From: Neoscytalidium dimidiatum
Lineage: Eukaryota > Ascomycota > Dothideomycetes > Botryosphaeriales > Botryosphaeriaceae
DNA length: 64,000 nucleotides
Assembly (NCBI GenBank): GCA_037367355.1
Contig: CM074695.1
Location: 1,488,001-1,552,000, forward strand
Reading direction: 5' to 3'
Shown here: in pieces, positions 8,178 to 40,029 of the stretch
How the letters are laid out: every line of letters begins with the position of its first letter
Position numbering within the stretch: the first letter of the stretch is position 1
The notes under the pieces: model-generated
Database searches by the model: none
Told to the model about the DNA's origin: nothing
Seen by the model: only the letters and a program-made list of their open reading frames with translations
Translations under genes and position numbers: made by a program

Positions 8178-8341
8178 GGCCGGTTGGCGCAATGGTAGCG
8201 CGTACCCCTCCTAATCATATATTGTATGATTATCGACAGAGATCAGCCGGAAGGGTAAGGTTGCGGGTTCGGTAGGCTCCCATAACTCTCACTGTGCCGC
8301 TCACATCGTACTGACATAATTACAGACTCCCGTACCGGCCG
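8178..8341 (+). tRNA. tRNA-Arg(CCU) with two interruptions
   Basis: Removing 8214-8251 and 8272-8325 leaves a 72-nt cloverleaf. The acceptor stem GGCCGGT (8178-8184) pairs perfectly with ACCGGCC (8334-8340). The D-stem is GCGC/GCGC with loop AATGGTA. The anticodon stem TACCC (8203-8207) pairs with GGGTA (8253-8257) around loop CTCCTAA, giving anticodon CCU. The T-stem GCGGG (8263-8267) pairs with CCCGT (8329-8333). The joined T-loop is TTCGACT and the discriminator is G. The body matches the arginine CCU isoacceptor pattern, including TTGGCG at the A box, and it decodes AGG. The first intron (38 nt) sits at the canonical 37/38 site. The second insert sits after position 57 and breaks the B box. 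Both the stems and the T-run downstream look undamaged, which argues against an old pseudogene. Confidence 0.85.
8272..8325 (+). other. 54-nt spliceosomal-type insert in the tRNA T-loop
   Basis: The insert starts GTAGGC after a G and ends TTACAG. It contains TACTGAC at 8309-8315, 10 nt before the end, so it has donor, branch and acceptor like the short protein-gene introns in this window. Its precise removal restores the seven-base T-loop. It lies between T-loop positions 57 and 58, where the eukaryotic tRNA splicing endonuclease is not known to cut. It interrupts the internal B-box promoter, of which only GGTTCG remains contiguous. Confidence 0.7.
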
Positions 8342-8344
8342 ACA

Positions 8345-8356
8345 TTTTTTTTTTTT
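8345..8356 (+). terminator. Pol III terminator (T12)
   Basis: A run of twelve T begins four nt after the end of the mature tRNA. This is the expected RNA polymerase III stop and supports the boundaries drawn for the interrupted tRNA gene. Confidence 0.8.
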
Positions 8357-37879: not shown

Positions 37880-39479
37880 ATGGTGCTGAAGAAGGTCCAG
37901 GGCCTGCTTAGCAGGCGCCCTGGCACCAGTCAGTCTCCCGCTGTTCGACTACTGAGAATATTTACTAACGGGTGGGGAGTAGGCTCGTCCGAGGATGCCA
38001 CTCAGACGTATGATCATAATTCGCCTGAGGGAGCCGCCGCGAGGGGTGTCGTATGTTCCCACCTACTTTTCCATACCATGCCGGAGTACTGATTCAGAAA
38101 CAGAGGCTCTTCTGCGAGTCTGGCGGTCCCAACAACGCTGTAAGTCTGAACCTCGAGGCCATGACTCCCGGGAATTTTCCTACACTGCTACGGATTCCCT
38201 TTTCACCAGAAGCACCGCTAACCACATTCTTGTCACTCAGACCGAAGAGATCCAATACCTCCCCGAGATCGTGACCGCCGCCGAGTCGTCGCCCGTGGCC
38301 GCCGAAGCCTGCGCATACCAGATCCGCCGGTTCCTATCAAAGGATAACTACTCCAAGCCACACGTACAGTACAACTCGATCATGCTGATCCGCATCCTCA
38401 CCGACAATCCGGGCGCGACTTTCACGCGCAACATCGATTCCAAGTTCGTCAGCACAGTTAAGGAGCTGCTGCGCAATGGGCGGGATCCTAGCGTGCAACA
38501 GATCCTACGCGAGACGCTTTTCGCGCTGGAGAGGGACAAGGCCTACGACACCAACCTGAACGCCCTCTTCCACATGTGGCGCAAGGAGCACGTCAACGGC
38601 AGCAATGCCAGTTTCGGGCCCCGCTCGCTAAACGCTCCGCCGTGGAGCCCCGGTCAGGGAGGAACGTCCGCCCAAGGCTTCGGCGGCGGGTCGTCCCGCC
38701 ACTCCTCGCGCGGTCTGCCTTCGCCCTCAGAGCTGGCGGCCCGCGTTGAGGAGGCCCGGACCAGCGCGAAGCTGCTGCTCCAGCTAATCCAGAGCACGCC
38801 GCCGGATGAGCTGGGGGGCAACGAGCTGGTCAAGGAGTTCGGCGAACGATGCCAGCAGGCGCAGCGCAGCATCCAGAACTACATCAACGCGGCGACGGAG
38901 GACTCGAGCCAGGCGGATGACGAGACGATGCTGACGCTGATCGAGACCAACGAGCAGTTGTCGCTCGCCCTCACTAAGCACCAGCGCGCGTACCTGGCCG
39001 CTCGCAGGAACGGCAGCTCCAACAACGTGCCCCAACTCGACAACGCCAACGTACCCGCTTCCACCCCGACTCCGCCGCCCCGTGATAACACCGCCGCCGC
39101 CGCCACCACGAACGTGGGCCTGGCGGACGAATCGACCACGACGACGACGTACGCCCCGCCTCCGCATCCGCCGCCCCACTTGCAGCAGAGCTTCGCGACG
39201 AGGGGCGACTCGCCCGAGCAGGACGACCCATTCTCCGACTCGCACGCCCACCACCCGCTCGAGCCGGCCCACTACGGCTCCTCGGCCACGAACGACCACC
39301 TAATCAGGCCCGGCGCCGGCGGCGAGGCCGGTGGCTTCCAGAGCACGCCGAGCTATCTGCACAGGCAGGAGAGCGCGGACGTGAACAGGACGATGCACGG
39401 GGCCGCGGGCGGTGACCTCGAGGAGAGTCGGGGAGGGCTGGGGAGGGCACGACGGGGTACGGTGAGGTGCCGGATGTGA
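37880..39479 (+). CDS. VHS-GAT domain protein, Lsb5-like
   Basis: Four exons, 37880-37928, 37983-38050, 38098-38139 and 38241-39479, join in phase to 465 residues; the introns are 54, 47 and 101 nt and the first has a perfect TACTAAC branch site. The VHS/ENTH-like helical domain spans about 20-165 (RLFCESGGPNNA, then HVQYNSIMLIRILTDNPG, then LRETLFALERDK). A GAT three-helix domain spans about 216-310 (ELAARVEEARTSAKLLLQLI to LALTKHQRAYLAARR). This matches fungal Lsb5, which binds Las17/WASP, Arf and ubiquitin and works in actin-linked endocytosis. The low-complexity C-terminus is rich in Pro, Asp and His. The last codons read GRARRGTVRCRM, while the +2 frame over the same DNA reads a tail that looks like the family end, so one base may be missing or extra near 39416-39457 (see findings). 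Confidence 0.88.
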
Positions 39480-40029
39480 GTCCGGTAGAGGAGAGGCGGG
39501 TTGTTTACAGATATTAAAAAGTGGAGTGGGTGAGCGAGGGCTAAGTTGTTGATTCTCGAGTGAAAAGGGGACACGGGGAGGAATTGGTGGTTACTGCGTT
39601 CTTTTTCTTCCTTTTTTTTCGACTTTTGGTTCTCTTTCAGAGGCACACGAGATACCACAATTGGTTTTTTTTTTTCATTAGGCGGGGTTGATGAGGGGTT
39701 GATTGGGTTGGATAGAATGTGATGATGATTTTCCTTGTTAACGTATTAAGTCTTGCATGAAGTGCTGCATCTGGGTCACGAATGAAGTGGTCCAAGGGCT
39801 GAGCGAGTTGTTACACTCTTCACGCAATGCAGAAGATGCTTTCGAGTGGTTACAAGTTACAGTCATGGTCGTGCGCTACAGGGTGCACTTCTCTATTTGA
39901 AGTGAAAGTTAGAGGGTGCTATGGCAGTTTACTGGCATTAACTGCCATTACTGGCCTCTCGGCTTCTGCTTCATGCTTGTCGGATAATCTGCTTTTACCC
40001 TGGACTCTCTCGTCTCTTAATACGTTGAA
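39480..40029. other. Short convergent intergenic region
   Basis: These 550 nt lie between the 3' ends of two convergent genes. They are T-rich, with runs at 39611-39620 and 39666-39677. I see no gene. The first 38 nt would be coding if the tail frameshift of the upstream gene is corrected. Confidence 0.6.

Follow-up and report, generated by a model that had tools for sequence, protein, structure and literature searches.

The tRNA-Arg(CCU) gene, its anticodon-loop intron and its T-loop insert

The window, a stretch of 64,000 nucleotides on contig C1 of the Neoscytalidium dimidiatum assembly (G000; 43.76 Mb, 40 contigs), contains a tRNA-Arg(CCU) gene in three pieces and, farther along, a gene for a GAT-domain protein (~37880-39514). 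Their features are as follows.

8178-8341, + strand: tRNA-Arg(CCU) gene with three exons; removal of its two introns gives a 72-nt cloverleaf
8178..8213, + strand: exon 1, with the acceptor 5' strand, D-arm, anticodon stem 5' strand, CCT and A37, assigned from the cloverleaf fold with the other exons
8184..8195, + strand: A-box region TTGGCGCAATGG, unbroken
8214..8251, + strand: canonical anticodon-loop intron of 38 nt at 37/38, Sen type, reported by ARAGORN as intron (37,38) once the T-loop insert is removed
8252..8271, + strand: exon 2, with A38, the anticodon stem 3' strand, variable region, T-stem 5' strand and T-loop TTCG
8272..8325, + strand: T-loop insert of 54 nt, GT-AG, GTAGGC...TACTGAC...TTACAG, between positions 57 and 58
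8309..8315, + strand: branch-site-like TACTGAC; the branch A would be 8314, 11 nt from the intron end
8326..8341, + strand: exon 3, with T-loop ACT, the T-stem 3' strand, acceptor 3' strand and discriminator G
Split by 8272-8325, + strand: B box of the gene, GGTTCG/ACTCC (slash, insertion point)
8345..8356, + strand: T12, resembling a Pol III terminator
37929..38240, + strand: three mRNA introns of the GAT-domain protein gene, from tblastn gaps, with boundaries set by eye

The preliminary description of this DNA had reported a tRNA-Arg(CCU) gene with a 38-nt anticodon-loop intron, a T-loop split by 54 nt at 8272-8325 and a T12 terminator, and all of these were present with the coordinates and sequences described, including the GTAGGC start, the TTACAG end and the internal TACTGAC of the insert. 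It had also claimed that exact removal of the insert restores a tRNA. Deletion of 8272-8325 indeed produced, in silico, a perfect and complete cloverleaf with a CCU anticodon, which ARAGORN identified as tRNA-Arg(CCT) with a score of 116 and a 38-nt intron at 37. With the insert in place, the Rfam tRNA model scored the gene at 18.4 bits against a threshold of 29 and misaligned its 3' part, and ARAGORN (bacterial settings, no introns) detected no tRNA in the raw window.

The insert had further been likened to introns of protein genes nearby, and the GAT-domain protein gene bears this out. Its product matches proteins of Neofusicoccum, Macrophomina, Diplodia and Lasiodiplodia at 70-83% identity, with 52-82% of the query covered, and the introns were placed by tblastn with the relatives P0001, P0002, P0003 and P0005 and then by eye. 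They read GTCAGT..TTTACTAAC..TAG, GTATGT..TACTGAT..ACAG and GTAAGT..GCTAAC..TCAG; these signals are shared with the tRNA insert. The product of a subtilase open reading frame, used in another protein search, gave no intron information.

A genome DNA search with the whole window locus, intron included, returned only the locus itself (one candidate scored; diverged copies can escape such a search), so that no second copy of this intron, as a repeated introner-type element would have, was seen in that search. The 5' end of the insert (8274-8284, AGGCTCCCATA) agrees in 9 of 11 letters with 8324-8334, which covers the insert end and the start of exon 3 (AGACTCCCGTA); this likeness may be a trace of the insert's origin, or chance.

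Interrupted tRNA genes elsewhere in the genome

The T-loop insert is not a lone oddity. Nuclear tRNA genes with a GT-AG insert of 51-61 nt outside position 37/38 number at least 18, representing 9 anticodon types and nine contigs. The inserts are located in the D-arm, in the anticodon stem or in the T-loop (57/58), often together with a separate 37/38 intron. The number is a lower bound, as 63 of 1020 tRNA candidates were scored and 100 of 148 places matching GGTTCGANYCC were listed. The 18 genes with intact signals are distributed as follows.

Arg(CCU): 3
Initiator Met (iMet): 3
Pro(CGG): 2
Pro(AGG): 1
Phe: 2
Ala(AGC): 4
Leu(CAG): 1
Arg(CCG): 1
Asp: 1

Besides the window gene, the T-loop is interrupted in two tRNA-Pro(CGG) genes on C3 and in one tRNA-Asp(GUC) gene on C6. 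ARAGORN, applied to fetched loci, placed the tRNA-Phe insert in the anticodon stem and those of the initiator Met and Pro(AGG) genes in the D-arm. Ala(AGC), Leu(CAG), Arg(CCG) and two further Arg(CCU) genes, both on C7, were added later; the C7 genes are interrupted at a position other than the T-loop site of the window gene. The inserts of iMet, Phe, Ala, Leu, Pro(AGG), Arg(CCG) and the C7 Arg(CCU) genes were all met through ARAGORN or BLAST, without the use of splice motifs.

Inserts also sit in dead copies. A fourth iMet locus, on C12, is decayed and has a GC donor and no branch motif, and in a sixth Ala(AGC) locus (L127, C9:1013075) the 3' part is intact, with the 5' exon of its relatives unrecognizable in a 901-nt stretch; this locus is either a truncated copy or one with a longer intron.

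Two features of arrangement were observed in passing. The Pro(CGG) genes L036 and L037 lie 15 kb apart on C3 in opposite orientation, with the interrupted Pro(AGG) gene about 1.4 kb from the second. Five of the six Ala(AGC) genes (L081, L092, L127, L132 and L152) share a trailer, TGGTT...CCAG or CTAG...TCCC, before the T run, which partly resembles a second B box.

Splice signals of the inserts

All 18 inserts begin with GT, have G at +5 and end with AG. The donor is GTAAGT in eight, GTAAGC in three, GTATGT and GTGAGT in two each, and GTCAGT, GTACGT and GTAGGC in one each; the end is YAG in 17 of 18, and an exonic G precedes the insert in 17 of 18. A branch motif CTRA[CT] with its A 10-13 nt from the end is found in 14 of 18, a count to be read with the fact that the brute-force deletion search described below itself demanded CTRAY, and the other four have CTAAG, CTAAA or TTAAC. 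Removal of the inserts in silico gives cloverleaf tRNAs, and the Phe, Ala, Asp and Leu junctions match those of intact paralogues. The longest T run inside an insert is 4 nt, a value that was not counted as evidence of T-run depletion.

The strict T-loop pattern GT..CTRAC..YAG at 57/58 occurred at four places in the genome, all of them tRNAs, and at none with the reversed control. Without the branch motif there were 9 matches versus 10 in the control. Thus, splice-site letters alone are not rare, and because the relaxed pattern did no better than its control, it is the tRNA context that identifies the T-loop cases.

A deletion test was also performed, in which every GT..CTRAY..AG segment of 40-115 nt was removed in turn over 126 nuclear loci (123 merged loci, 218 kb, plus three iMet loci). 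A tRNA was newly made or improved at 15 locus-strands, versus 1, 2 and 2 with three control motif sets. On inspection, 13 of the 15 were upheld, and L048 and L118 were spurious; at L087 the top-scoring junction differed from the one supported by its paralogue. Looser filters separated less well (15 versus 7 and 12; 11 versus 3 and 5). The loci were partly selected, L036-L038 coming from the GT-AG pattern and the three iMet loci from an iMet query. Five of the 18 genes were missed by the test: the inserts in Ala C5, C9b and C11 were recognized by aligning these genes with Ala C4, and the junctions of the two C7 Arg(CCU) genes were set by reading the anticodon stem. A less biased sample, blind to genes with a split B box, was provided by the first 100 of the 148 GGTTCGANYCC places (the reversed control had 161). 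Of these places, 51 lay in an ARAGORN tRNA, and 7 of the 51 had a GT-AG insert upstream, namely Arg(CCG), Leu, three Ala and two Arg(CCU) genes. The control motif sets, together with paralogue pairs that were met without splice motifs, rule out chance resemblance.

Paralogous copies and exon changes

Uninterrupted copies were present for Phe (1 of 3) and Asp (4 of 5) among the fetched loci and for Ala (1 of 6) by search. The Phe gene on C9 is uninterrupted at CCAGACTGAAG; at CCAG/ACTG the C2 gene has an insert of 61 nt and the C5 gene one of 54 nt. Among the six Ala(AGC) loci, the C4 gene alone is whole at the D-loop site, and its 44-nt Sen intron is identical to that of the interrupted Ala gene on C11. 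The Asp genes on C5 and C6 are identical from -2 through the terminator, except for one base of the Sen intron and the 51-nt T-loop insert, and show no clear similarity by eye outside the presumed Pol III transcript. Such pairs look like gain or loss through a transcript from which the GT-AG intron was gone and in which the Sen intron was kept; gene conversion or insertion would fit them too. That likeness between Asp genes L038 and L094 is confined to the presumed Pol III transcript is as expected of an RNA-mediated copy.

The exons of interrupted genes differ in ways that respect the fold. Between iMet C3 and the C7 and C4 genes there are six differences, and all of them fall into two-sided compensatory pairs, of which the acceptor stem has two and the T-stem one. 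The window gene and the C7 Arg(CCU) genes have eleven differences, and all 21 pairs are intact in both: the anticodon stem has three two-sided compensatory pairs, the acceptor stem has three one-sided changes, each giving G-U, and loops account for the remaining two differences, one of them subject to the placement of the Sen intron boundary. Structures slid along the iMet and Arg(CCU) alignments paired 29-50% of cells, versus 100% for the true one. Shuffles reached the observed pair count in 75 of 500 cases for iMet and 58 of 500 for Arg(CCU), a weak result from two-row alignments. This pattern of change argues for selection acting on the spliced form of the iMet and Arg(CCU) tRNAs, and taken with the presence/absence pairs the compensatory changes argue for function.

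Initiator tRNA and other types for which no uninterrupted copy was found

The spliced iMet sequence matched four loci, and in all four the 3' piece begins at nt 23. At three of them (C7, C4 and C3) a clean GT-AG intron, 57, 56 and 54 nt long, respectively, occupies one and the same site, and the intron sequences differ by eye. No joined iMet copy was found in the assembly with a 31-nt junction pattern allowing up to 3 mismatches. The initiator tRNA is essential, and the cell must therefore splice the iMet insert to start proteins, as judged from the genome sequence, provided that the 43.8-Mb assembly is complete and has not left out an intact gene. The prokaryotic and viral contig collections contained no interrupted iMet, which is uninformative on fungi, and a scan for uninterrupted iMet gave one match, in viral contig L153, that was not used as evidence.

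The preliminary description had also suggested looking for an uninterrupted tRNA-Arg(CCU) elsewhere. None was found by DNA search, the three known loci being the window gene and the two interrupted genes on C7, and neither of the two Pro(CGG) loci is uninterrupted, both being split at nt 56. In both cases diverged copies can escape the DNA search; the window-exon query, for instance, did not show the C7 Arg(CCU) genes.

Promoter elements

Introns in the D-arm and the anticodon stem spare the B box in the T-arm, whereas those in the T-loop break it. Inside the T-loop introns of Pro(CGG) and Asp lie AGTTCGATCCT and CGTTCGAATCC, each of which agrees in 9 of 11 letters with the B box of the gene concerned. 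The shuffle p is 0.0015-0.007 before any correction, and the two Pro copies, as near duplicates, are not independent. These stretches could serve TFIIIC. The intron of the Schizosaccharomyces pombe U6 gene holds a B box, and the Pro(CGG) and Asp introns resemble it in this respect. The remaining introns reached at most 7 letters against one B-box form, and in the window intron no B-box-like stretch was found (best 6 of 11, shuffle p 0.84). Within the window, three places lie within 1 mismatch of GGTTCGANTCC, each more than 14 kb from the gene, and the C7 Arg(CCU) copies keep their B box. Because the T-loop insert splits the B box and no replacement was found, the window gene may be weakly expressed or on its way out.

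The window gene has ATAT at -38. Among 77 predicted tRNAs, 34 have TATA or ATAT between -60 and -25; the positional peaks are weak, and we rejected the upstream element as support for the gene, it being weak and not specific. In vitro, yeast tRNA genes that have a TATA element can do without TFIIIC for their transcription (PMC3978253). With an intron that has no B box and an upstream ATAT that is of little help, the case for the class is firmer than that for the window gene alone.

Proposed removal of the inserts

The reading that best accounts for these results is that the nuclear tRNA gene of the window has a spliceosomal intron in its T-loop, one of at least 18 outside 37/38, and we assign it a probability of roughly 0.83. 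The mRNA-splicing machinery of N. dimidiatum thus very probably has to cut tRNAs too. The preliminary description had already attributed removal of the insert to the spliceosome, and the 18 genes with three kinds of site, the mRNA-type signals, the paralogue pairs and the failure to find an uninterrupted iMet gene all point the same way. In the proposed pathway, Pol III would transcribe the interrupted gene, U1 and U2 would, in the nucleus, recognize the donor and a branch site of the CTRAY type, and the spliceosome would join the tRNA exons; the Sen endonuclease and a ligase would afterwards remove the 37/38 intron, where present. We infer transcription by Pol III, removal by the spliceosome, the order of the two splicing steps and the origin of the introns from sequence. 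The division of labor, with the spliceosome acting on GT-AG inserts and Sen on 37/38 introns, can be proposed with high confidence for the class and with moderate confidence for the window gene. A wider interpretation appears likely, with somewhat less assurance: the spliceosome would be a required tRNA-maturation enzyme in this lineage, many pre-tRNAs would pass through the spliceosome and then Sen, some introns would have taken over the B box, and half-spliced pre-tRNAs would have been copied back, the last of these suggested by the Asp C5/C6 and Ala C4/C11 pairs.

Other explanations make different demands on the inserts. If these were non-canonical tRNA introns cut by Sen at a bulge-helix-bulge, as in Cyanidioschyzon, nucleomorphs and archaea, such a structure would be expected at their ends, but the standard form (central helix plus both flanking helices) was found in none of the 18. 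A 4/4 central helix was present in one of the 18, Phe C2, and there the intron-side flanking helix scored 0/3; moreover, a bulge-helix-bulge intron has no need of the GT-AG ends, +5G and branch-like motif that occur in 18 of 18. Many of these genes do contain Sen-type 37/38 introns as well, and introns in the D- and T-arms are reported for some eukaryotic tRNAs in a review (PMC4090602), so that the idea has precedent; we nonetheless consider it very improbable here. Less credible still is an assembly or sequencing artefact, which would have to have produced the same signals, differing insert sequences and exact boundaries at eighteen loci on nine contigs and which we regard as negligible.

The interrupted genes might instead be pseudogenes that insertions have inactivated, their task being left to intact copies. 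The intact Phe, Asp and Ala copies and the decay of iMet C12 agree with this, as does the statement in the same review that eukaryotic D- and T-arm insertions are mostly supposed pseudogenes (PMC4090602). It would, however, leave iMet, Arg(CCU) and Pro(CGG) without any uninterrupted copy that could be found (for the latter two with the limits of DNA search given above), and it sits badly with exons that are fully paired and have compensatory changes and with three iMet genes that keep their splice signals intact at one site around differing introns. For iMet we reject the pseudogene explanation; for the window gene it keeps some probability, and as an account of the whole set it has little to recommend it. 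A milder possibility, compatible with the spliceosomal reading, is that the class is spliced and the window gene itself is poorly expressed or dying, the C7 pair supplying the tRNA. The C7 copies, with their B box kept, and the window intron, with the nearest places like GGTTCGANTCC so far away, would suit this. On the other side, the window gene has a perfect cloverleaf, an acceptor stem whose pairing is stronger than that of the C7 copies, intact splice signals, the T12 terminator and the weakly informative ATAT at -38; the in vitro transcription of TATA-bearing yeast genes without TFIIIC (PMC3978253) also speaks against a dying gene. We hold a dying window gene to be a tentative alternative, on balance unlikely.

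Comparison with known systems

Nuclear tRNA introns are taught as being of one kind, located at 37/38 and cut by Sen. Spliceosomal introns occur in the nuclear rRNA genes of euascomycetes; these are likewise mRNA-type introns in a transcript not made by Pol II and differ in that their host is a Pol I-made rRNA. A reference on the 18S rDNA of deuteromycetes is cited in PMC11782384. Among small Pol III RNAs, the U6 snRNA of S. pombe and other fungi likewise has a GT-AG spliceosomal intron, for which reverse splicing has been proposed as the origin (PMC10484740); the preliminary description had raised reverse splicing as a possible source of the T-loop insert as well. Unlike U6, the host here is a tRNA, many genes and several positions are involved, and a second, Sen-type intron is often present in the same transcript. 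U6 offered no parallel case in the present genome and was rejected as one, since its one full-length match, of 102 nt, had no insert (47 of 2356 first-look candidates scored). Fungal U3 snoRNA genes also have short GT-AG introns with branch motifs in a structured RNA, and paralogues with and without the intron (PMC5832005). In that 2017 survey, which covers U3 whereas the host here is a tRNA, frequent interruption is said to be known for just two small structured RNAs, U3 and U6 (PMC5832005).

Introns outside 37/38, sometimes two or more per tRNA, are likewise described from Cyanidioschyzon merolae, nucleomorphs and Crenarchaeota (PMC4090602). In C. merolae and archaea their removal is ascribed to the tRNA splicing endonuclease acting at a bulge-helix-bulge, whereas the inserts here lack that motif and have mRNA splice signals. 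Eukaryotic non-canonical tRNA introns are supposedly rare according to that review, in which the term "spliceosom" does not appear (PMC4090602). The preliminary description knew of no fungal nuclear tRNA of this kind, and spliceosomal introns in nuclear tRNA genes were likewise not reported among the open-licence PMC matches listed.

If the spliceosomal reading is true, there would be no initiator tRNA-Met, and hence no translation, without the spliceosome, mRNA splicing would be coupled to translation initiation, and the spliceosome would work routinely on tightly folded Pol III transcripts. The presence/absence pairs, in genes that are tiny and checked by their structure, would make intron gain and loss readable base by base. 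Such genes can escape standard tRNA finders or be given a wrong name; ARAGORN passed over some interrupted genes and labelled others Arg(gcg), SeC, Ile or Tyr. Because of this, fungal tRNA counts, and decoding tables with them, may be wrong.

Contig C40 of the assembly, 308 kb in length, has tRNAs of mitochondrial type. Those listed on it are present in two copies separated by about 177 kb, which looks as though the assembly had gone more than once around a circular mitochondrial genome of roughly that size.
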